Of a stretch of 64,000 nucleotides of DNA, positions 28,180 to 38,856 are shown one piece after another; position 1 is the stretch's first letter, and the number at the start of each line of letters is the position of its first letter. A model generated the notes under the pieces. That model was not told where the DNA came from and searched no databases. It was given only the letters and a program-made list of their open reading frames with translations. Source of the stretch: Arthrobacter sp. MYb227 (GTDB lineage Bacteria > Actinomycetota > Actinomycetes > Actinomycetales > Micrococcaceae). A program made the translations under genes and the position numbers. Location of the stretch: NCBI RefSeq assembly GCF_002975435.1, contig NZ_PCPT01000006.1, positions 1-64,000 of the forward strand. The letters run 5' to 3'.

Positions 28180-28198
28180 TTAGGATAGGTTTACCTTC
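28180..28198. promoter_or_regulatory. DtxR/IdeR-type iron box upstream of the siderophore-interacting protein
   Basis: TTAGGATAGGTTTACCTTC matches 14 of 19 positions of the DtxR consensus by my count. It lies 25 bases before the GTG of the reductase gene and so should repress it when iron is plentiful. Confidence 0.7.
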
Positions 28199-28222
28199 CC
28201 TAATTCAAGAAAGCGGTGTTCG

Positions 28223-29071
28223 GTGACCACACAGCGATTGGCGCGTCCGGTTCGTCCTCAGATTGTTCTTGAAGTTCTCGCTACAGAGATGCTTTCCGAG
28301 CACATGATTCGGCTAACTTTTGGTGGCCCGGGTTTCGAGAACTTTCAAGACAAGCCCGTTTCGGATCGCTATGTGAAGATTTTGTTTGCCAAGCCGGAAC
28401 TAGGCCTCATTCCACCGTATGACCTAGATGCTTTGCGCGAGCAGCTGGCACCGGAAGATTTTCCGGTGCGGCGTACCTACACGTTGCATCATGTTGACTT
28501 AGAAGCAGGGACCGTACAAATCGACTTTGTGGTTCACGGCGATGAAGGCATTGCTGGCCCGTGGGCGTTGAACGCAAAAATTGGGGATCAGATTTGCTTC
28601 AATAGTCCCGGCGGGTTGTACACCCCAAACCCAGAGTTTGCTCGACACCTACTGATCGGTGATGAGACCGCCCTGCCGGCGATTTCGGCGGCCGTGCTGG
28701 ATATGACTCCGGAGATGGTCGGCGATATTTATCTCGAGGTTGGTGGCCCGGAAGATCACGTCACGCTCGATGTGCCCGAGGGGATCACTGTTCATTGGTT
28801 ACATCGAGGTGGGCCCTTTACCCCGGAGAACACCCGACTCGAATCCGTGGTTCGTGCGGCACCTTGGTCCGATGATAGCGTGCAAGTTTTTGCCCACGGT
28901 GAGCGTGAAACGATGAAGACACTGCGCGCGTATCTGCATGGTGAACGTAAGGTCGACCGCAAGGCGATGTCGCTTTCGGCATACTGGGCCTTCGGTCGAG
29001 CAGAAGATGAATTCCAGGCGGAAAAGAAGAGCCCCATCGGGCAGATTTTTCCAGAGGTAGCTAACGCCTAA
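28223..29071 (+). CDS. Siderophore-interacting protein (NADPH-dependent ferric-siderophore reductase)
   Basis: A 282-residue FAD protein of the SIP/ViuB family, which releases iron from ferric siderophores in the cytosol. The FAD-binding part shows FPVRRTYTLHHVD and FVVHGDEGIAGPWALNAKIGD; DETALPAISAAVLDM begins the NADPH half; and the SIP C-terminal SAYWAFGRAEDEF is clear. The GTG start lies just behind an iron box, so it joins the haem genes in the same iron regulon. A strong terminator follows. Confidence 0.92.
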   Translation: MTTQRLARPVRPQIVLEVLATEMLSEHMIRLTFGGPGFENFQDKPVSDRYVKILFAKPELGLIPPYDLDALREQLAPEDFPVRRTYTLHHVDLEAGTVQIDFVVHGDEGIAGPWALNAKIGDQICFNSPGGLYTPNPEFARHLLIGDETALPAISAAVLDMTPEMVGDIYLEVGGPEDHVTLDVPEGITVHWLHRGGPFTPENTRLESVVRAAPWSDDSVQVFAHGERETMKTLRAYLHGERKVDRKAMSLSAYWAFGRAEDEFQAEKKSPIGQIFPEVANA

Positions 29072-29191: not shown

Positions 29192-30220
29192 TTAGGTGCG
29201 GTTTGTGGAACGTTCCGCTAAGGAATCTTCGAGACCATCCTCCAGTTCATCCTCGTAGTATCGTCCTTGGCGTAGGCCAATGATCAGAGCTACGGCTATC
29301 AGGATGAGCAGAAGTCCAATCTGTCCCCACGGGATATTCCAGCTTGAGATGCTGGAAACATGTTCGGTACCCGAGGCGCCGTCAATACCCTCGGGAATAG
29401 TTGTGACTTTTGTCGTCAGGGAGAAAATCGGCCAGATCCCTCCGAACTCTTGAATAACGTTGACACTGGACCCGGGAATCAATTCCTCCGTGGAGAAGGT
29501 CTTAGTCGACTCTCCCCAACCGAAGAGCCCGCTGGTTGTAATCGAATAATTACCGCGCGCTCGTACCGTTCCGGAATTGTTCAGCGTGAAAGTTACAGTG
29601 GCCGTGGTGGGCGCAAACGGATTCCAAGCAAGTGGGGTGAGAACATTCAAATCCTGTGTTTCCAAGAAAACAGTACCTTCACCGCCAACGCGCACATTCA
29701 CGCGGTTTGCCAGACGCTGATCCACCACAACGGTACCGCCGCTGGCGGTATCAAGGTAGGAGGAAATCAGACCGCCAACATAATCACCCGGGGCGGTATT
29801 TTTCGGGACTTCAAGGGTGAAATCTACTGATTCGGTTTCGCCGGGAGATAATGTGATTTTAGGTTCACTGACCTTGACCCATGAGCCAACGACCGTTGAG
29901 GGATCATTTGCGGGAAGTAGGTCCAGTGCTCCCGAACTTGACGTGATTCCATCGGCCGCGTAAATGGTTAGTGAAACTTCATTGGAGCCTAAATTCGTCA
30001 CCTCGAATGCGTCTTTCTTCTTCGCCCCCGCTTCGAGATCGTAGCTGAAGTTGGTGCGCGAATCATCACCTCCTGGCCGGATGCTCCAAGAAAGTTCGTC
30101 CGAAGGTGCCGCTTGTGCCGGTGCGCCCAAGAGCGGTAATGCAGCGATCAGCGCCGCAGCGATCAGCGCCGCGCCCCAACGGGAAAGGTTCGGTGAAAGT
30201 ATTGAAAGCTTCAAGCTCAT
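29192..30220 (-). CDS. DUF916 (WxL-interacting, peptidoglycan-binding) surface membrane protein
   Basis: A 342-residue exported protein. The signal peptide (residues 1-37) ends at APAQAA; the body (about 40-290) matches DUF916: LSWSIRPGGDDSRTNFSYDLEAGAKKKDAFEVTNLGS, then PGETESVDFTLEVPKNTAPGDYVGGLI. A membrane helix (about 297-318) and an acidic/basic cytoplasmic tail end it. In Firmicutes such proteins (WxLIP) hold WxL-domain proteins on the wall. Here the upstream neighbour is an HtaA protein with a WxL-like C-terminus, so the pair probably forms a surface haem-binding complex (inference). No iron box precedes it, and a terminator stands between the two genes. Confidence 0.8.
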   Translation of the reverse strand: MSLKLSILSPNLSRWGAALIAAALIAALPLLGAPAQAAPSDELSWSIRPGGDDSRTNFSYDLEAGAKKKDAFEVTNLGSNEVSLTIYAADGITSSSGALDLLPANDPSTVVGSWVKVSEPKITLSPGETESVDFTLEVPKNTAPGDYVGGLISSYLDTASGGTVVVDQRLANRVNVRVGGEGTVFLETQDLNVLTPLAWNPFAPTTATVTFTLNNSGTVRARGNYSITTSGLFGWGESTKTFSTEELIPGSSVNVIQEFGGIWPIFSLTTKVTTIPEGIDGASGTEHVSSISSWNIPWGQIGLLLILIAVALIIGLRQGRYYEDELEDGLEDSLAERSTNRT

Positions 30221-30305
30221 GATGTCCTAGAAACTGAATCGTGGGCGAATTTGGAGGGAAAACGCATGATTGGGTGTGAATGCGAGCCGAGCTGGCCGGA
30301 ACGCG

Positions 30306-30357
30306 CAAAAGTGGGATGCTGTTTCACTGCAGTGAAGCAGAGAAGCAGCACCCCACT
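30306..30357 (-). terminator. Terminator behind htaA
   Basis: On the minus strand AGTGGGGTGCTG (30346-30357) pairs with CAGCATCCCACT (30310-30321), with one mismatch and an inner GAA/TTC pairing; TTTT follows. It ends htaA transcription before the DUF916 gene. Confidence 0.7.
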
Positions 30358-30368
30358 AGAGACGATAG

Positions 30369-31754
30369 TTAGTCGCTAATTGCCGTAATCGTCAATCTCG
30401 ACGTGTAGTTACCTGCCGGGGTGCCCGCCGGAGCAATCAAGTTCAGAACTGCCTCGACGGTAGCGGTCGATTTTCCTGTTGAGGTCACTAGGTTCCGCGC
30501 TTCTGCCAGACCCGTGCCCGGGGTAACTGTGTCGCCCGCATTCACAACGCCGGTGGTTCCGCTGCCGCCCGGAACCCACCCGAGGGCCGATGCCGTGAAA
30601 CTATTGGATCCGGACTCGAACGCGGATGACTTTCCGGTCAGTGACCAACCGGTTGAGTTCTCCCGGGAATCGGTGACCGTGATTTCTGGAAGTGCACCGC
30701 TAGCGCTAAAGCCGGCAGCGTTCTGTTCAGCGTTGCCGAGCGATATAGAACTCCCACCGAGCGTCCAAGAGAATGCGCCCGGTGTTACCGTTTTGGTCGG
30801 TACCTTGACAGCTACATCCACGGACTTCTCGGTATCAGTGTCGGCCGGGGGAGCTACCACAGGTGGCTTGGCATCCCAGTTGACGGCCAGATCGGTTGCT
30901 ACCTTGCGTGGATCGGCACCACCACCAGAGGAGTACCAGTAGGGCTGGGCGCCGGTCTTGCCCTGGAATTCAATGAAGTCCTGGGGGAAAGCTCCCCAGT
31001 TTGCGCCAGTCGTTATCTGGTTCGTGACACTTGAAGGTGTGGTTACTTCCTTGTATTCAGGCGCCTGGATGAAGCCATCGGAGTCCACTTCTACACCCTT
31101 GAGGTTGGCCAGAGTGATTTTCTGCGGTGCGAGGGCTTCCCATGCGTCGGGGTCGTCCATGGAAGCGCCATATCCGCTTGCAGTTGCGGTGAGTGTTGCG
31201 GTTCCATCGGCCTTGACCGTCAACTCAGGATTAGTGGCAGACCAGTAGGTCAACCCGGAGTAGAACACCGAGGTGAATGAGCCGGTCCACTTGATGTTTG
31301 CGGTCTTGGCCGCTGTATCCACGGTGCCGGTTCCCTTGGAAAGGACAACCTTGTTGTTGCTGACCTTATCCAGTCCGACCGCGGCGACTGGGCCGCCTGC
31401 GCCGGTCTGGCATTTGTTGGCCCAGCTGGTGTTGATGGTGCTTCCGTCGGGTCCATCCTTGACGATCGCTACATTGCCTTCAGCTTGCTTGTAAAATCCG
31501 TCGCCCTCGGTCCACGCTCGGCTAGCACCGGAGTTTCCTGCTTTGCCGGCTGAAATGAAGTTGCAGGCACCTGGCTGGAAAGCGCCGGCACCGGATTCAA
31601 GGTTGAGGCCCCAGCTCAACGTGACATCTGAAACGTTTTGCTCCGCTGCTTGCGCAGGTGCTGCCAAAGCGCCGAGCGTAAGTGCGAGACCGGCGACAGT
31701 GGCGGCTGCGAGAGTTTTGCGAGTCGTGGGCGTTGCCCAACGGCGTGCGAACAT
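30369..31754 (-). CDS. htaA: HtaA-domain haem-binding surface protein with WxL-like C-terminal domain
   Basis: A 461-residue secreted protein. The signal peptide (1-36) ends at APAQAA. One HtaA domain (about 40-290) runs from VTLSWGLNLESGAGAF through YSGLTYWSATNPEL to PYWYSSGGGADP. After a linker the last 140 residues resemble a WxL domain: GWSLTG (WxL at Trp370) and the closing AGTPAGNYTSRLTI. No membrane anchor is present. HtaA proteins bind haem for the HmuTUV importer in corynebacteria. CGGAGGA precedes the ATG, and an iron box lies 23 bases upstream. A DUF916 protein encoded next is its likely wall partner. The His of corynebacterial HtaA haem sites is not obvious here. Confidence 0.85.
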   Translation of the reverse strand: MFARRWATPTTRKTLAAATVAGLALTLGALAAPAQAAEQNVSDVTLSWGLNLESGAGAFQPGACNFISAGKAGNSGASRAWTEGDGFYKQAEGNVAIVKDGPDGSTINTSWANKCQTGAGGPVAAVGLDKVSNNKVVLSKGTGTVDTAAKTANIKWTGSFTSVFYSGLTYWSATNPELTVKADGTATLTATASGYGASMDDPDAWEALAPQKITLANLKGVEVDSDGFIQAPEYKEVTTPSSVTNQITTGANWGAFPQDFIEFQGKTGAQPYWYSSGGGADPRKVATDLAVNWDAKPPVVAPPADTDTEKSVDVAVKVPTKTVTPGAFSWTLGGSSISLGNAEQNAAGFSASGALPEITVTDSRENSTGWSLTGKSSAFESGSNSFTASALGWVPGGSGTTGVVNAGDTVTPGTGLAEARNLVTSTGKSTATVEAVLNLIAPAGTPAGNYTSRLTITAISD

Positions 31755-31776: not shown

Positions 31777-31795
31777 TGAGGTAAGGCTAACTTAA
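31777..31795. promoter_or_regulatory. DtxR/IdeR-type iron box upstream of htaA
   Basis: TGAGGTAAGGCTAACTTAA matches 16 of 19 consensus positions by my count, the best box in the window, 23-41 bases before the htaA start. Confidence 0.8.
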
Positions 31796-31855: not shown

Positions 31856-33211
31856 TTACTTGTTGGTTTTTTGTAGTTTGAATGGCAGTGCAAGCCAGCC
31901 TTTGCGGAACCCGACCCAACTGAGCGCGGTTAGGCCCAGAAGTCCTGCTACGGACCACAAAAGCCAGTCTTGGTAGTCTCGCGCTAGCTCTATCGCCTCG
32001 GGGATTAACGATCCACCTAACCAGTTGGCAGCGCCCACCGCGGAGGTGGTGGCTGAGGCGAGCAAGGTGCTGAGCGGATCGCTCGACAGGGCTGTCTCTT
32101 CGGGCTCCAATACCCCCGGGGTCAATCCACTGTCCAAAACTGATCGATCGCCAACCGATGTTCCAAATTTGTCTAGAACACTATTTTCTTCGTCGGTGGG
32201 CGGATCTATGAAGCTTCCACTGTCGCTACCCGTTAAACCCGAATCGGAAATGCTCTCGCCCGGGGGCGGAACCGCTAGGACGGGGTTCTCAGGTGTGTAA
32301 CTGATGTAGAGCGTTGAGGAGATCTTGGCAATGTCTCTAGATCCGCCCGTCGAGTACCAATATGAGCCTTGCCCGGATTTTTCTTGAAAGTCCACGAACG
32401 CTTGCGGGAATGCGCCCCAAGTATTCCCGGTTCGAACCTGCGGGGATCCAGTATCCTCGACAGGAACTTCCTTATATGCGGGGTCAGTAACGATGCCCTT
32501 GTCGCCGAGGTTAACCGATGGCAAGGTGGCTATGACTACTCGTTGTGGCGCAAGTGGGGACCACCTACTGGTGTCTTCTCGGTCAGTGCCGTAACCACTG
32601 AGTGTGGCGGTCAAGCTTCCCTTGCCATTGGCAACCGTGAGTTCTGGATCTGTTGCACTCCAGTACGTCATGCCGTTATACAAAGCAGAGGTGAAGGAAC
32701 CTTTCCACTTGATACTCGCGGTTTTCTTGCCCGAATTAATAACCCCGGTTCCGCCCTCTATGACAATCTGAGCGCCAGTTCCAGGTTCGTTGAAACTAGT
32801 TCCAACCTTTCGGCCATCTTTGTCGAGGCATTTGTTTTCCCAGGAATCAACGACCCATTTACCGGCAGCATTTGGTTTTTCGATCCGCACTTGCCCAGAT
32901 TTTTGGGCATAGAATCCGTCTTTTTTAGCCCATTCTCGCGAAAACTTGGCATCTCCAGCGACACCGGCAGAGAGGAAGTTGCAGGTCCCCGGCGCAAAGG
33001 CGCCCGAGGTTGACTCCTTATTTAGTCCCCATCGAAATTGTGCGTCGGTAACCTTGAACTCCTGCTTGGAAGTGCTTGTTTCGGGGATCGTAACGCTAAC
33101 GTCGATGCCCCCTTTATCCGCAGCAACGGCTATACCCAAGGAGGAGAACGTCAAGGGAACCAGCAAAGCGGACGCGGCTAGTAGCCGGAACCGGCTCTGA
33201 GTGAGTTTCAT
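31856..33211 (-). CDS. HtaA-domain haem-binding protein, C-terminal membrane anchor
   Basis: A 451-residue exported protein. The signal peptide (1-30) precedes one HtaA domain (about 45-310): FRWGLNKESTSGAFAPG, YNGMTYWSATDPEL, GNTWGAFPQAFVDF and SYWYSTGG match the other HtaA protein segment by segment. A Ser/Asp/Pro-rich spacer follows, then a membrane helix (about 418-440) and a basic tail. By analogy with corynebacterial HtaA/HtaB it passes haem to the HmuT lipoprotein. It is the last gene of the hmu run and overlaps the preceding gene by ATGA. Confidence 0.85.
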   Translation of the reverse strand: MKLTQSRFRLLAASALLVPLTFSSLGIAVAADKGGIDVSVTIPETSTSKQEFKVTDAQFRWGLNKESTSGAFAPGTCNFLSAGVAGDAKFSREWAKKDGFYAQKSGQVRIEKPNAAGKWVVDSWENKCLDKDGRKVGTSFNEPGTGAQIVIEGGTGVINSGKKTASIKWKGSFTSALYNGMTYWSATDPELTVANGKGSLTATLSGYGTDREDTSRWSPLAPQRVVIATLPSVNLGDKGIVTDPAYKEVPVEDTGSPQVRTGNTWGAFPQAFVDFQEKSGQGSYWYSTGGSRDIAKISSTLYISYTPENPVLAVPPPGESISDSGLTGSDSGSFIDPPTDEENSVLDKFGTSVGDRSVLDSGLTPGVLEPEETALSSDPLSTLLASATTSAVGAANWLGGSLIPEAIELARDYQDWLLWSVAGLLGLTALSWVGFRKGWLALPFKLQKTNK

Positions 33212-34668
33212 ACACCTTGCCCTGCATGAGTCTTTTGAATTTCGTCGATAGTGGTTGTCGGTGGCGCTACTGAGGACGAACCTTGATCTGACGAATAAAG
33301 TGAGTCAAATGAGGCGCCGAAACCTTCGTCGTTGGAAATGGACTGTGGTTGCCGGCGAGGAACTGTTGGACGCGGCGCAGTGTTGTTACGTTTACGGGCT
33401 GCCGGGCGGAGTTTTTTGCGACGTACCGGACGTGTTTTAGTTTCACTCCGGCGCCTAGCTAAAGCGGTGATGAATGAAACCAGAAAAACAAGCAACAGTA
33501 TGGAACCGGCAATTATTACCGCGACCAGTGCCCACCAAACTCCATCGGCGCCCTCGGCTGCAGTGGAAGCGAGAGCTGCGGGATTGGCCATGACGCTGAA
33601 TTCTGCCTCGACGGAGGCACCAGAACCAGCCCCGGCTAGTTTGAGTTTGTGGGTACCCGCGGCCATATCCGAAGGGATCTGGACGACTCCGGCAACTTCG
33701 CCAAAGGTTCCTGCAGTGATTGGTCCGGCCGCGGTGATTCCAGCCGCTAGAGTTCCAACCACCTGTTCACCCGGGGCGAAGCCGCGGCCGGTGAAACCGA
33801 GGGTGCGCCCGGCAACAACGGTTTTTTGTTCGATGCCCAGCACGGGGTTTCCGCTTGTAACTGCCTGTGGAATGGTACCGCTCGATTGTGGTTCGCCGGT
33901 TGTAGGAACCTGTTCAGTGGTTCCATGCTCGGTTCCTGCGACGCTTCCCTGACCTTGCTGGGTCTGCTGCGTGGTAGCGCCGGAGTTCCCTATTGCGGGC
34001 TGCTGGGTAGCTTGAGTCTGCTGAGTGGCCGTTCCCTTGGCTTCGGATTTGGTTGTCGCTGCAGCGGGCTTGGCCGCACCGAAGCTAAGCGGAGTGAATG
34101 ATTCATTGTTGCCGTTTGCTACGCCATGCGCACCAAAGGTGATGATGCCGCATTGCACCTGGCGGCAATCAATATTCGTCTTGGACCCGGTGCTTGATTC
34201 GGCATTGAAGGTGGGACCGGGGATGACCATTTTTAGTTTAAAAGAACCCGATGCCGAGATAGTCCCACCATTGGCGGAGTCCGAGGTGCTAGAACCGGGA
34301 AAGGCAACAAATCGCTGGTATCCCTGGTTGTTCTTTGACTGTGCATCGGCAATATAGAAGAAGTCTTCTCCGGCTTTTCCGCCCTGGCTAGGGCGCCATC
34401 CGCCGCTGTTCTTCAGATACCCAAAAGTCACGTAGATTCCACCGAATGCCTTCGGAATGGACTGTAATCCGGATCCCGACACCGTGACACTCGTCGGCCC
34501 GCTGGCCGAGGCCTTTGCCTGGCCCAAGGAAGAAACTACGCTGATGCGAGGTGCAGCCTCGGCGGGTACTGCAGTGGCGAGATGCGCCAATGGGCTGGCG
34601 ACAAGCATCAAGCTTAGCAACCCGATCCAGAGCCGTTTCGCGGGTCGGTGTTTGTGCTGCTTCATCAT
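33208..34668 (-). CDS. Surface-anchored protein of the hmu operon, unknown function
   Basis: A 486-residue exported protein. The signal peptide (1-38) is followed by a beta-rich domain (about 40-195: VTVSGSGLQSIP, GGIYVTFGYLKN, with a Cys pair in DCRQVQCGI). A Gln/Thr-rich linker (about 200-265) leads to an Ig-like domain (about 275-355: GRTLGFTGRGFAPGEQV), a membrane helix (about 372-398) and a basic, Ser-rich cytoplasmic tail. The first domain looks like the neocarzinostatin/Ig-like domains seen in actinobacterial haem loci. ATGA overlaps on both sides tie it to hmuV and to the HtaA gene, so a role in haem relay is likely (inference). Confidence 0.75.
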   Translation of the reverse strand: MMKQHKHRPAKRLWIGLLSLMLVASPLAHLATAVPAEAAPRISVVSSLGQAKASASGPTSVTVSGSGLQSIPKAFGGIYVTFGYLKNSGGWRPSQGGKAGEDFFYIADAQSKNNQGYQRFVAFPGSSTSDSANGGTISASGSFKLKMVIPGPTFNAESSTGSKTNIDCRQVQCGIITFGAHGVANGNNESFTPLSFGAAKPAAATTKSEAKGTATQQTQATQQPAIGNSGATTQQTQQGQGSVAGTEHGTTEQVPTTGEPQSSGTIPQAVTSGNPVLGIEQKTVVAGRTLGFTGRGFAPGEQVVGTLAAGITAAGPITAGTFGEVAGVVQIPSDMAAGTHKLKLAGAGSGASVEAEFSVMANPAALASTAAEGADGVWWALVAVIIAGSILLLVFLVSFITALARRRSETKTRPVRRKKLRPAARKRNNTAPRPTVPRRQPQSISNDEGFGASFDSLYSSDQGSSSVAPPTTTIDEIQKTHAGQGV

Positions 34669-35483
34669 ACGAATTCCTCCCGGAGACCGTGGCGTGTGTT
34701 CAGATGGGGGCGAAGCGGAACAACCGCTAATCCGCCCGATTCCGGATGCTCAATAACCGCAACTTTGTGCCGGTAGACCTCTTCGATAATGTGTGGCTGC
34801 AGAACCTGGCGGGGAGTTCCAGCTATACGGATTTTCCCGGCATCCAAGAGGACGATGCGATCCGCATAGGCCGCGGCCAACGACAGATCGTGTAACACCA
34901 CTACCGCGGTCGCACCCATGGATGCGCGCTCTCGAGTGCGCGTCAGCAGTAATTCTTGATAGCGAATGTCCATCGCGGCCGTTGGCTCATCGAGCATGAT
35001 TAACTCGGTTTCCTGAGCGAGTGCGCGTGCAAAGGCGACACGAGCTTTTTCTCCACCCGAAAGCGCTGGGAAAAGCCGTGGCGCTAGCGTCGTGGATTCG
35101 CTGGCCTGCATGGCCGCAGCGATCACTTCGTCATCGTGATCCTCAAAGCTAGTACCCGCCCAAGGAGCTCGTCCCATGCGAACCACGTCCTGCGCGTCGA
35201 ATGAGAACGATACATTGGATTCCTGCATTTGAACGGCACGCAATCGCGCAAGATCTTTGACCTTCCAACCAGAAAGAGTGACGCCGTGAAGCGTAATGTT
35301 TCCCGAGTCCAAGCGGGTGTCTCCGCAAAGGGCCGAAAGCAAAGTGGATTTTCCGGCTCCATTTGGGCCCACCAGAGCCACAACTTCACCGGCATAGAGC
35401 TCTAACTCGACTCCGCTGAGAATCTCTCGCCCGCCCAATTCCAGGCGGGCCTGATGGGCTTGCATGACTACTCGACGGCTCAT
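34665..35483 (-). CDS. hmuV: Haem ABC transporter ATP-binding protein
   Basis: A 272-residue cytosolic ATPase. VGPNGAGKSTLL is Walker A, FPALSGGEKARVAFARAL the signature, LIMLDEPTAAMD Walker B, and VVVLHDLSLAAAYADR the H-loop. The FecE/HmuV type is clear from length and the HDLSLA pattern. The ATG at 35483 overlaps the hmuU stop as ATGA, which decides against the TTG two codons earlier. It powers haem import through HmuU. Confidence 0.92.
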   Translation of the reverse strand: MSRRVVMQAHQARLELGGREILSGVELELYAGEVVALVGPNGAGKSTLLSALCGDTRLDSGNITLHGVTLSGWKVKDLARLRAVQMQESNVSFSFDAQDVVRMGRAPWAGTSFEDHDDEVIAAAMQASESTTLAPRLFPALSGGEKARVAFARALAQETELIMLDEPTAAMDIRYQELLLTRTRERASMGATAVVVLHDLSLAAAYADRIVLLDAGKIRIAGTPRQVLQPHIIEEVYRHKVAVIEHPESGGLAVVPLRPHLNTRHGLREEFV

Positions 35484-36628
35484 GACCAACCACCAGCGCC
35501 CTTGCGTGTGCGACGAATCAACCAGAAGAAGAAAGGTCCACCAACGAGGGCGGTGAGCATGCCGATGGGTAGATCAGCGTTTGGAACCATAGTGCGTGCA
35601 GCAGTATCTGCGATCAGCAAGAGTAGTGCACCACCCAGTGCGCTAGCCGGTAGTAGTACCCGGTGCCCCGGGCCTAACGCCATGCGAAGGATGTGCGGAA
35701 CCACCAAGCCCACAAAACCTATGATTCCCGCAAAAGCCACGGCAGCACTGGTCAGTATCGCTACAAGCACGATCACCTGACGACGTAGCTTTTCCACATC
35801 GACCCCAAGATGCCGGGCCGGGCGCTCGCCCAGGGCCAAAAGGTCAAGTTTTCGAGTGAAAAAGAAAGCGATTCCAATACCGACAACCGTGATTGGTCCG
35901 GCCACCCAGACGTTGTCCCAACGGGTTCCATTTAACGATCCCAACTGCCAGAAGATTATTTCCTCACGTGAGGAGCTATCACCCAGAAACGTCATGAGCG
36001 CAATGACTGCACCGCCCACGGCATTGATTGCAACGCCGGTGAGAACCAACGTGACAACTTCGGTTCGGCCACCGGAACGTGCGGTTGCATAGACCAATGC
36101 AGTGGCCACGAGCCCACCGACGAATGCTCCAAAGGCCACGGTCCAAGTGCCAAAAAAGTTCAGCCCGAACACAATGACGATGCAGGCGAATGCCGCGGCT
36201 CCAGAAGAGACACCTACGACGCCGGGTTCTGCTAGTGGATTTCCAAAGACTCCCTGCATGAGTACACCGGAGCAGGCAAGCGCGGCACCAATGGTGATAG
36301 CCATGACTACCCGTGGAAATCTGATGGCCCACAAAGCCGATTCGGCGTGCTGTTGGGCCGGTAACGTTCCCCACTCGAGACCCAGCCGGTGCATTACGCT
36401 GGCAAAGACTTCGGAGGGAGTTAGTTGCATTTGCCCTATGCCGGCAGAGGCCAGCATCATGCCCAGCAATGAAATCGCCAACGCCGTAAGTAAAATCCCT
36501 GCGGTCAGTTTTCGGCGTGTGTTACGTGGACCATCGGACTCTGAGCAGAGATGAACCGGGAGTGTGCCGGTCAATTCGGGGGTTTCCCAGCGCACAAGTG
36601 GCAGGGGTTTGAGTTCCTCGGTAGCCAC
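35480..36628 (-). CDS. hmuU: Haem ABC transporter permease (FecCD family)
   Basis: A 382-residue membrane permease with about 10 helices. The start is a GTG just after the hmuT stop. FecCD signatures include RFPRVVMAITIGAALACSGVLMQGVFGNPLAEPGVVGVSSGAA (central conserved region) and GERPARHLGVDVEKLR, the coupling loop contacting HmuV, then GFVGLVVPHILRM. It forms the haem channel of HmuTUV. Confidence 0.92.
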   Translation of the reverse strand: MATEELKPLPLVRWETPELTGTLPVHLCSESDGPRNTRRKLTAGILLTALAISLLGMMLASAGIGQMQLTPSEVFASVMHRLGLEWGTLPAQQHAESALWAIRFPRVVMAITIGAALACSGVLMQGVFGNPLAEPGVVGVSSGAAAFACIVIVFGLNFFGTWTVAFGAFVGGLVATALVYATARSGGRTEVVTLVLTGVAINAVGGAVIALMTFLGDSSSREEIIFWQLGSLNGTRWDNVWVAGPITVVGIGIAFFFTRKLDLLALGERPARHLGVDVEKLRRQVIVLVAILTSAAVAFAGIIGFVGLVVPHILRMALGPGHRVLLPASALGGALLLLIADTAARTMVPNADLPIGMLTALVGGPFFFWLIRRTRKGAGGWS

Positions 36629-36630
36629 TA

Positions 36631-37743
36631 CTACTGAGCTCCGTCGGTGGTTGTTTCAGCTGGTGCATACACGGCCACGGATAGCGCTTCGAGGATACCC
36701 GCGGAGTTGGGACCAAAGCTTAGAACATCGGAGTCTGCCATGTCCACGATGCGATTCTTGGCACCTGCCGGAGTATGAGCTAGAGCCGGAACGCTCGTTT
36801 TGATTCCTTCTACACCGCCGGCAGATTCGAGGCCGCTGGACATCATGATGACCAGATCGGGAGCTGCCTCTACTAGTGCCTCGTCTGTCATCGGGCGCAT
36901 GCCTTTCCAACCGATGTCACTAGCTACATCTATGCCACCGATTGAGGTGATGAGTGAGTCTGCTCCGGAGCCCTCACCAAAAAGGTAGTAAACCCCTGAT
37001 TGCCCGCGAGCGTAAAGGAAAATCATGCGAAGGCGATCGTTACCTTGGGGAGTAATCTCCGAGATTTGCTCGGTGATGGCCGTGACCTGGTTGGTGGTTC
37101 GTTCGGCAAGTTTCGCTCCCTGTTCGGGAACGCCGAGTGCATCAGCGATCTGAGTGATCATCTCATCCGAGTTCTCGAGGCTGCGGTGCGAGTCCACCAC
37201 GAATACCGGGATGCCGGCCTCGCGCATCTGCAAGACCACGTCCCATGGCCCGAGTGAGGAGTCGGTGATTATCACCGAGGGAGCCAACTCGAGGATGGAT
37301 TCGGCATTTAATTCGTGACCGTTGTGCGTAACGAGCGGGAGGTCCTTGATCTCTTCAAAATCTGAGGAAACATCGCGCCCCACAACATTTTTGCCCAGAC
37401 CCAAATCGAAAACGATGCGCGATGAAGTCCCATATAGGTCGATGGGTAGGATGCGGGAAACATCAGTGATTGTCACGTTGGTGCCCTGAGCGTCCGTCAC
37501 GGTGACCGGCAGCTTTACTTCGGGATTATTTGCCACGGGGTCTAGCACTGCGGAAGCTAACAACGCTGTTGAGGGGCCCTCATAGTTCTTAGGATTATCA
37601 ATAAGTGTTGCACTACTCAGGGCTTTGCCTTGGCCTGTGGCTTCGGCTTCTAACGAAGATGAGCAGCCCACCAACATTGTTGCCAGCAGCGTGGCCACCG
37701 CTAGTGCTCGGTGAGTCCGGTGTCGAAACATGGTGGCGCGCAA
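36631..37743 (-). CDS. hmuT: Haem-binding lipoprotein of the HmuTUV importer
   Basis: A 370-residue lipoprotein. The signal sequence ends in LVGC, a lipobox with the lipidated Cys at residue 27. The body is a class III periplasmic-binding fold: ISRILPIDLYGTSSRIVFDLGLG, VTHNGHELNAESILEL (His near the position of the haem ligand in corynebacterial HmuT) and YARGQSGVYYLFGEGSGADSL (candidate Tyr ligand). A TTG at 37743 is chosen because AAGGAAG lies just upstream; an ATG four codons later is also possible. First gene of the hmu run, behind an iron box. Confidence 0.9.
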   Translation of the reverse strand: MRATMFRHRTHRALAVATLLATMLVGCSSSLEAEATGQGKALSSATLIDNPKNYEGPSTALLASAVLDPVANNPEVKLPVTVTDAQGTNVTITDVSRILPIDLYGTSSRIVFDLGLGKNVVGRDVSSDFEEIKDLPLVTHNGHELNAESILELAPSVIITDSSLGPWDVVLQMREAGIPVFVVDSHRSLENSDEMITQIADALGVPEQGAKLAERTTNQVTAITEQISEITPQGNDRLRMIFLYARGQSGVYYLFGEGSGADSLITSIGGIDVASDIGWKGMRPMTDEALVEAAPDLVIMMSSGLESAGGVEGIKTSVPALAHTPAGAKNRIVDMADSDVLSFGPNSAGILEALSVAVYAPAETTTDGAQ

Positions 37744-37832
37744 TTTCTTCCTTCGAGAGAGCTTTAGATCAAGATGGCCAGGTATTCCAAAACGCCTTGC
37801 GAGCAGTAGAGCGCCCGCGACAAACAGTAAGG

Positions 37833-37851
37833 TAAAGGTAGCCTAACTTCA
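37833..37851. promoter_or_regulatory. DtxR/IdeR-type iron box upstream of hmuT
   Basis: TAAAGGTAGCCTAACTTCA matches 14 of 19 positions of the near-palindromic consensus by my count, about 90 bases before the hmuT start. A further partial copy (TCTAACTTAAC) follows close by. Confidence 0.65.
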
Positions 37852-38143: not shown

Positions 38144-38162
38144 TAAGGTTAGGGTAACTTTA
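38144..38162. promoter_or_regulatory. DtxR/IdeR-type iron box upstream of hmuO
   Basis: TAAGGTTAGGGTAACTTTA matches 15 of 19 positions by my count and ends 28 bases before the hmuO start. Confidence 0.75.
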
Positions 38163-38190
38163 GATAAATCGCTCAAGCTCAGGGGAAATG

Positions 38191-38856
38191 ATGTCAGCAG
38201 AAGAGAAGCTTTTTTCTACGCAGCTCAAAGAAGTAACACAGACAGACCATAGTGAGGCAGAAAATAGTGAGTTCATCACAACCCTGATGAATGGTTCGCG
38301 AACGTCGCGGGATTACGTTCTGCTTCTTTCGCAGTACACCTATATTTATAGTGCGCTTGAGGCCGAAGTACGTGCCTTGGTCACGGACCCGGAGCTGGCA
38401 CCAATTTTTGATCTTCGATTGGAACGATCGAAGCGAATTCAGGATGACCTTGCACTGTTGTTGCCTCTCCACGGATTTACGGAGATTCCTAGGGCACTTA
38501 ATGGAACTCTCGAGTATGTGAGGCAGATTCATGAAGCAGCCAAAGACCCGGCGCGGCTCGTAGCACACCACTACCTGCGCTACTTAGGTGATCTTTCAGG
38601 AGGTCAGATCATTGGGCGCCTCGTGGAGCGACACTATGCGGTATCGCAAGATGCATTGAGTATGTGGCGTTTCGAGGGCATTGATAAGTACAAGCCATAT
38701 AAGGATGAGTACCGCGGGAAGCTCAATGACTATGCAGTGACCTCGGGTCGGGCTGATGCCCTGCTCGAAGAGGCTGCGAAGGGATTCGTGCTTAATAAGG
38801 CGCTGTTTAGGGATTTGCTCACCCAATCACAGCAGTCGGCGTTGCTGTCGGCATAA
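38191..38856 (+). CDS. hmuO: Haem oxygenase
   Basis: A 221-residue cytosolic enzyme that opens haem to biliverdin, CO and free iron. The proximal ligand is the His in TQTDHSEAEN; with the second of two adjacent ATGs as start it becomes His20, the same number as in C. diphtheriae HmuO, and AGGGG is better spaced to this ATG. LVAHHYLRYLGDLSGGQ is the distal-helix signature, and FEGIDKYKPYKDEYR matches the family C-terminal part. Divergent from the haem importer and controlled by its own iron box. Confidence 0.93.
   Translation: MSAEEKLFSTQLKEVTQTDHSEAENSEFITTLMNGSRTSRDYVLLLSQYTYIYSALEAEVRALVTDPELAPIFDLRLERSKRIQDDLALLLPLHGFTEIPRALNGTLEYVRQIHEAAKDPARLVAHHYLRYLGDLSGGQIIGRLVERHYAVSQDALSMWRFEGIDKYKPYKDEYRGKLNDYAVTSGRADALLEEAAKGFVLNKALFRDLLTQSQQSALLSA

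Follow-up and report, generated by a model that had tools for sequence, protein, structure and literature searches.

The window analysed here is a stretch of 64,000 nucleotides from Arthrobacter sp. MYb227 (contig NZ_PCPT01000006.1, positions 1 to 64,000). On its minus strand, read from 37743 down to 29192, stand hmuT, hmuU, hmuV, the gene of a conserved protein without a Pfam match, an HtaA-like gene whose product carries a membrane helix, a gene in which an HtaA-like domain is fused to a WxL-like domain (30369-31754) and, last in the row, the gene of a DUF916 protein, or WxL-interacting protein (WxLIP; 29192-30220). With a probability of roughly 0.7, we consider that the last two genes encode a haem-binding surface protein and the partner that anchors it non-covalently, by a WxL/WxLIP clasp, at the end of a haem-uptake locus. 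The reading is founded on the gene order, on domain homology, on the conserved pairing and co-divergence of the WxL-like domain and the WxLIP, and on the alternative wall anchors found on relatives that lack WxL. A haem-capture module held by a WxL/DUF916 interaction had already been proposed in a first-pass annotation of this DNA; it is supported by the WxL-like domain at profile level, by a DUF916 match over the cut-off and by the co-occurrence of the two, while the complex itself is something that we infer. Such a clasp appears to fix a surface protein that catches haem to the wall in many actinobacteria.

The fusion gene is an open reading frame of 461 amino acids on the minus strand, with relatives in named genomes, many of them full-length. 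Its product begins with a signal-peptide-like region (residues 1-36, 31647-31754) with an AQA-A type end, read from the sequence without a predictor, and a reading of the same kind finds no hydrophobic stretch at the C-terminus; the signal peptide without a membrane anchor thus stands as first described, as do the coordinates and frames of this gene and of its neighbour, both on the minus strand. From about residue 40 to 292 (30879-31637) the protein consists of a divergent HtaA/CR-type domain, recognised by hhalign and Foldseek, and from about residue 322 to 460 (30375-30791) of the WxL-like domain, modelled with pLDDT mostly of 93-97. The motif GWSLTG, which had been placed at about residue 369, is found at residues 369-374 (30633-30650), where its W is kept in 33 of 38 aligned proteins and replaced by F in the other five; it is followed by LGWVP at residues 391-395 (30570-30584), the W and P of which are invariant (38/38). 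When 28 actinobacterial C-terminal domains were compared with 10 Bacillota WxL proteins from Enterococcus, Listeria innocua and Companilactobacillus, hhalign returned a probability of 95.2 (E 2.7e-8, 134 columns). With a WxL-like profile rebuilt on a different alignment the probability was 92.3; of its controls, the WxLIP alignment reached 14.3, and the reversed and CR alignments did not exceed 0.4.

The partner gene (29192-30220, minus strand) is an open reading frame of 342 amino acids. As had been proposed, its product combines a signal-peptide-like N-terminus, a DUF916 domain and a membrane helix: PF06030, under which DUF916 is now named WxLIP_PGBD, matches at 29768-30067 with 41.6 bits (cut-off 27.3; E 1.4e-10), and the C-terminal helix with its charged tail occupies 29201-29329 (helix 261-303 of the model). 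Between them AlphaFold places the strands of a second immunoglobulin-like (Ig-like) domain at 29336-29728, where DUF3324/HBD would stand, and the whole model, in which both Ig-like domains are followed by the C-terminal helix, has a mean pLDDT of 93.2. The three best PDB chains found with it by Foldseek are all Enterococcus faecium WxLIP (9i1y_A, 9i1y_B and 9i25_C; E 4.5e-12 to 4.5e-11), the alignment to 9i1y covering 268 columns with TM-scores of 0.54/0.61; going by its title and chain names, 9i25 is a solved WxLIP-WxL complex. The E. faecium chains are reached by sequence as well, with a profile of 37 WxLIPs (E 6.3e-5 and 7e-5), and PF06030 at E 0.1 matches 11 of 11 aligned WxLIPs.

The pairing of the two genes was followed by scanning an HtaA-like alignment over named genomes; 119 matches were confirmed, and the 80 best of them make up 73 loci, extending at most 9 kb on either side. 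A WxL-like domain is present in 54 of these loci, and in 50 of the 54 a WxLIP gene follows directly downstream on the same strand, with 88-435 bp from the WxL stop to the WxLIP domain; in the remaining four the contig ends 1, 3, 398 and 69 bp past the gene. Chance pairing was rejected, as each of the 50 named loci with flank beyond the gene has the pair. The 19 loci without a WxL-like domain contain no WxLIP in the stretch examined. Sixteen of them are informative (L070 is cut by its contig, and L084 and L089, by their contig names, share genomes with the pair-bearing L048 and L047), and 14 of these 16 keep hmuTUV; ordinary synteny is therefore unlikely as the cause, given that hmuTUV is retained there and WxLIP is not. 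Among the WxL loci, hmuTUV lies within the stretch in 46 of 54. The WxL-like domain shares its frame with an HtaA-like domain in 48 loci, and in the other six a canonical CR domain takes the place of the latter (E 1.7e-11 to 4.5e-6). Such natural domain swaps, with a CR domain on a WxL tail beside a WxLIP gene, are L073, L076, L081, L091, L093 and L100, and also L146 (5578-7257), which matches PF04213 with 60.8 bits, over the cut-off, has the sequence WGYKESFRRYV and a WxL tail, and adjoins both WxLIP and hmuTUV genes.

The association does not depend on HtaA in the query. With a query lacking it, 396 genomes of the window's order yielded the WxL-like domain in 81, PF06030 in 71 and both in 69 (Fisher p 9e-62, with no correction for relatedness). 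The co-occurrence that the first-pass annotation put forward as a test is conserved. Of the 12 genomes with the WxL-like domain only, ten have an adjoining downstream WxLIP (split in one case) to which Pfam was blind, and in the two others the WxL-like gene stands at a contig end; for the two genomes with PF06030 only, G408 and G545, the open frames that contain it are 1203 and 1697 amino acids long. At least 96 of 146 PF06030 places are preceded, within 1 kb, by a WxL-like domain, the WxL-like places numbering at least 150. Since the genome of the window contains a single WxL-like and a single PF06030 match, the HtaA protein is the only WxLIP client found in it. The carriers include Micrococcaceae, Microbacteriaceae, Cellulomonadaceae, Ruaniaceae, Dermabacteraceae and Propionibacteriaceae (one genus or species was assigned for each), and the fusion, which occurs in several families besides that of the window, reaches Streptomyces, Tessaracoccus and metagenome-assembled genomes of Bifidobacteriaceae. 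In the split case (L157:403-3049) the two parts of the WxLIP lie about 1.5 kb apart, perhaps owing to an insertion.

The two partners also diverge together. Over 33 loci the divergence of the WxL-like domain correlates with that of the WxLIP with r 0.844, or 0.783 as a partial correlation on HmuT, through which alone relatedness was corrected, and none of 1000 permutations reached this; the correlation of the WxL-like domain with the HtaA-like domain of its own chain is lower (r 0.429, 33 loci). To judge from family matches, the pair is not specific for haem proteins, and its other cargo includes alkaline phosphatase: this family is matched by 6 of 13 aligned WxL-like proteins from the window's family, and in L020-L029 secreted phosphatases (alkaline phosphatase, metallophosphatase) end in a WxL-like domain, most of them beside a WxLIP gene. 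On plasmid pCCh of Clavibacter phaseoli (L104) a glycoside hydrolase gene, a gene of a small WxL-like protein and a DUF916 gene stand in a row, which resembles the small-WxL clusters of Bacillota; public plasmid records already label Actinomycetota DUF916 proteins as such, and give the small WxL-like protein beside the one of Clavibacter the name hypothetical protein.

Conversely, secreted HtaA proteins without WxL end in other tails. These are SLH repeats in L059 (88 bits, in a stretch without hmu genes), CWB2 repeats in L063 (160 bits), LPxTG-like signals, read by eye, in L075, L077, L082 and L083, an LAxTG-like signal in L090 (21.7 bits, cut-off 27), Big domains in L092 (54 bits) and L071 (32 bits, under the cut-off of 35.5) and, in further proteins, other repeats. 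The secreted HtaA of L064 stops right past the domain and is tail-less, and L085, L097 and L103 have membrane-helix HtaA forms only, although a secreted HtaA could lie elsewhere. Related haem proteins that naturally carry either WxL with WxLIP or sortase, SLH and CWB2 tails provide a clean test of the role of WxLIP.

The mechanism that we propose is as follows. The HtaA-like domain would catch haem outside the cell, and the DUF916 (PGBD) domain of the WxLIP would hold the WxL-like tail at the wall, with neither a sortase nor a membrane helix in the HtaA protein itself; the WxLIP, in its turn, would be fastened through its C-terminal helix to the membrane of the bacterium itself. The haem so caught could then pass to the membrane-anchored HtaA paralogue (31856-33211), further to HmuT and then to HmuUV, after which haem oxygenase would open it. 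For E. faecium, an interaction of WxL and WxLIP was reported in vitro (PMC5817068), and in an AlphaFold complex of the E. faecium proteins a strand of the WxLIP hairpin runs parallel to a strand of WxL (PMC10599100). Foldseek matches of our models point in the same direction: the model with the WxL-like domain finds, among others, the pilins FimG and CsuA/B (at E 2.5e-3 or weaker), and the pilus chaperones CfaA, CsuC and Caf1M come right behind the WxLIPs in the list of the partner (E 2.5e-9 and weaker), among many Ig-like folds. Pilins on the one side and pilus chaperones on the other suggest, though they do not prove, a donor-strand-like clasp. Extending this, we tentatively suggest that the WxLIP/WxL pair might be the Gram-positive counterpart of the pilus chaperone and pilin, in which a strand of the WxLIP would complete the WxL fold and stay there as a membrane-tied clasp, and which would serve as a general, exchangeable wall anchor of Actinomycetota; its load here would be an HtaA superfamily branch that is new, binds haem and uses another iron ligand. 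In the literature searched, WxL and donor strand are mentioned together in a single paper, once each.

The same chaperone and pilin matches would also fit a different division of labour, in which the WxL-like domain binds peptidoglycan itself and the WxLIP, rather than anchoring it, chiefly helps to fold or export it; in Bacillota, WxL domains are peptidoglycan binders that are also able to attach in trans (PMC5817068). We find this doubtful, because a hydrophobic C-terminal helix is present in 50 of 50 related WxLIP frames of the 73 loci, and in three of them (L058, L062 and L079) just the DUF916 half and the helix are kept, without the second Ig-like domain, which is what a tether would show. 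The WxLIP may be both tether and chaperone. As for the direction of the helix, its insertion in the membrane of a host was proposed for gut Bacillota (PMC10599100), and the locus would in this case be a host-contact system. For the pair described here we regard this as very improbable: it occurs in many genera which, judged from their names alone, are free-living, its place here is in a haem-uptake locus, and a C-terminal helix after a secreted domain would usually be a stop-transfer for the bacterium's own membrane. In Pseudoclavibacter (L040, L041, L046 and L048) an S/A-TG-type sequence, perhaps a sortase signal, is added before the last WxLIP helix.

Several results weigh against the clasp as we read it, and they concern the tail, the partner and the distribution of the pair. 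PF13731 (WxL) matches residues 356-453 with 15.2 bits only (E 0.022), under the 25-bit cut-off, and at E 0.1 it matches no more than 6 of the 13 WxL-like proteins from the window's family (best E 0.00056). A textbook WxL domain has two Trp-x-Leu motifs, the distal one being Y-x3-(L/I/V)-T-W-x-L-x3-P; in our alignment this distal motif is lost, with I, L or V for the W of Y-x3-L-T-W in 38 of 38 proteins. The WxL assignment of the C-terminus thus holds at profile level and fails at the Pfam cut-off and at the second motif, and the domain is better called WxL-like than a WxL domain of the textbook kind. Searched against PDB sequences, the WxL-like profile found no WxL chain; such a search is insensitive, as the Bacillota WxL profile itself finds 9i25_A only at E 0.015. 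No Pfam match to DUF3324 exists in the WxLIP of the window or in any of the 11 aligned WxLIPs. Within the window's family, the Micrococcaceae, a WxLIP adjoins the WxL-like gene in 10 of 12 loci (in L023 and L028 none adjoins, although one is present elsewhere in the genome), and the HtaA-WxL fusion occurs in only 2 of 197 genomes (that of the window and G016). Joint transfer of both genes could partly explain their pairing and co-divergence.

The label HtaA needs the same care. PF04213 (HtaA) gives no match to the window protein up to E 1 and none in its genome, and the S-x3-Y motif is not found in the HtaA-like domain; in the known CR domains a tyrosine of the first helix holds the haem iron (PMC12494546), and this motif is the axial-ligand one. 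What stands of the label is homology at the level of profile and fold. The N-terminal domain family aligns with 30 PF04213 domains with an hhalign probability of 94.6 (E 6.7e-8; reversed controls 0.2), and at other loci the canonical CR profile matches 7 WxL proteins of the HtaA-like type with E <1e-3. With the AlphaFold model of the mature protein (pLDDT 88.2), the two best Foldseek matches are Corynebacterium diphtheriae HtaA CR2; HbpA comes next, and C. glutamicum HtaA has rank four (PDB entries including 8smu, 9bch and 6jsc; E 2.5e-4 to 1.1e-3). These matches are moderate, and this too counts against us: 3 of 766 reach E <=0.001, the TM-scores by target are 0.30, 0.31, 0.65 and 0.55, the first two targets being fluorescent-protein fusions, and a pilus adhesin complex, a phage tail fibre and GH123 enzymes, all unrelated beta proteins, come close behind. 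A search of PDB sequences with the HtaA-like profile, at E up to 10, returned just 6jsa (C. glutamicum HtaA, E 0.03) and 9bch (HbpA, E 0.14); single-protein searches of PDB sequences gave no useful match. PF04213 itself is present in 66 of 296 genomes of the class and absent from 60 of 60 genomes scanned in the phylum.

The lack of a PF04213 match and of the axial motif, together with the third rank of HbpA, which is titled a haemoglobin receptor (9bch), would also be compatible with a fused domain that is HtaA-like in fold only and takes a ligand other than haem, such as a haemoprotein or a different tetrapyrrole. This is unlikely in our opinion, for hmuTUV accompanies most of the WxL loci, canonical CR domains substitute for the HtaA-like one in the swapped loci described above, and relatives come close to the PF04213 cut-off of 24 bits (L075 with 23.9, L082 with 21.8 and L071 with 20.9). 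Tyr165 and Tyr272 are candidate haem ligands: all 38 aligned proteins have both, and Tyr165 stands opposite the helper histidine when the domain is aligned with CR domains. Two residues past the site of the S-x3-Y tyrosine, the aligned proteins have Y in 20 and F in 18 cases, and the window protein has F.

The remaining genes of the row and those around it make it, by their family matches, a haem-uptake locus. HmuT, a substrate-binding lipoprotein (36631-37743, minus strand), matches PF01497 (Peripla_BP_2) at E 1.9e-31, the FecCD-type permease HmuU (35480-36628, minus) matches PF01032 at E 2e-94, and HmuV, the haem ABC transporter ATPase (34665-35489, minus), scores 289.9 bits with NCBIfam NF010068 (cut-off 261); a haem oxygenase gene (38188-38856, plus; PF01126, E 1.1e-44) diverges from hmuT. 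The HtaA-like paralogue with the C-terminal membrane helix (31856-33211, minus; 451 amino acids) is 43% identical to the fusion protein over query residues 18-305. Between it and hmuV lies the gene of a conserved 486-amino-acid protein with a C-terminal hydrophobic helix (33208-34668, minus), which has a relative in 65 of the 73 loci, no match in Pfam and none over cut-off in NCBIfam; its N-terminal part recalls neocarzinostatin-type Ig folds, which we take to be a candidate likeness only.

Control of the locus by iron may be expected from sites scored within 5 mismatches of a DtxR consensus. The best of them (31777-31795, plus strand; 3 mismatches, none in 100 shuffles) starts at position -23 of the HtaA-WxL start; two overlapping matches with 5 mismatches each lie upstream of hmuT (37828-37851, plus), and one with 4 mismatches upstream of the haem oxygenase gene (38144-38162, plus). 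A further site (28180-28203) precedes the gene of a siderophore-interacting protein (28223-29071; PF04954/PF08021), for which reason the iron locus may extend past the hmu genes. Over the whole window the matches number 6, at 4 places, where 20 resampled windows had 0.35 on average and at most 1; of the 54 upstream regions in related loci, 20 have such a site, compared with 54 among 2000 random pieces. Fe_dep_repress has three matches over cut-off in the window genome. A table in PMC13001254 includes htaA, hmuTUV and htaB among the genes changing in its comparison.

If our reading is true, a tether provided by a second protein joins the own helix, the sortase signal and the S-layer among the anchors of Gram-positive haem proteins, the WxL/WxLIP system is extended to Actinomycetota, and the case argues against the WxLIP as a device for host membranes. 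No paper treating HtaA together with WxL was found in the literature searched. The Isd system of Staphylococcus is another wall-held haem relay, in which NEAT-domain proteins anchored by sortase pass haem to an ABC transporter and a haem-opening enzyme. The locus described here would share the wall-held relay with it, while NEAT domains and sortase belong to Isd only; NEAT families gave no match among the 8 window proteins scanned with Pfam and NCBIfam.

PMC10599100 and PMC5817068 place the WxL domain almost wholly in Lactobacillales and Bacillales. With the WxL/WxLIP clusters of these orders the present pair shares a C-terminal WxL-type domain on a secreted protein and an adjoining partner gene with DUF916, a second Ig-like domain and a membrane helix, the fold of the partner matching solved WxLIP. 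It differs in its actinobacterial host, in the loss of the second WxL motif with LGWxP kept, in a DUF3324 that is undetectable by sequence, in a cargo that is haem-binding (as predicted) or a phosphatase, and in that nearly all haem loci have one WxL-like gene and one WxLIP, whereas the commonest arrangement in Bacillota is one WxLIP with two WxL (PMC10599100). The corynebacterial HtaA/ChtA systems with HmuTUV are alike in the CR-like fold, the type of transporter, the haem oxygenase and the iron-box-like sites. The known HtaA/ChtA proteins presumably have a C-terminal helix of their own that keeps them in the membrane (PMC12494546); in the window, the divergent domain lacks the axial tyrosine motif, the protein that carries it ends without a hydrophobic stretch, and the tether would be given by a second protein.

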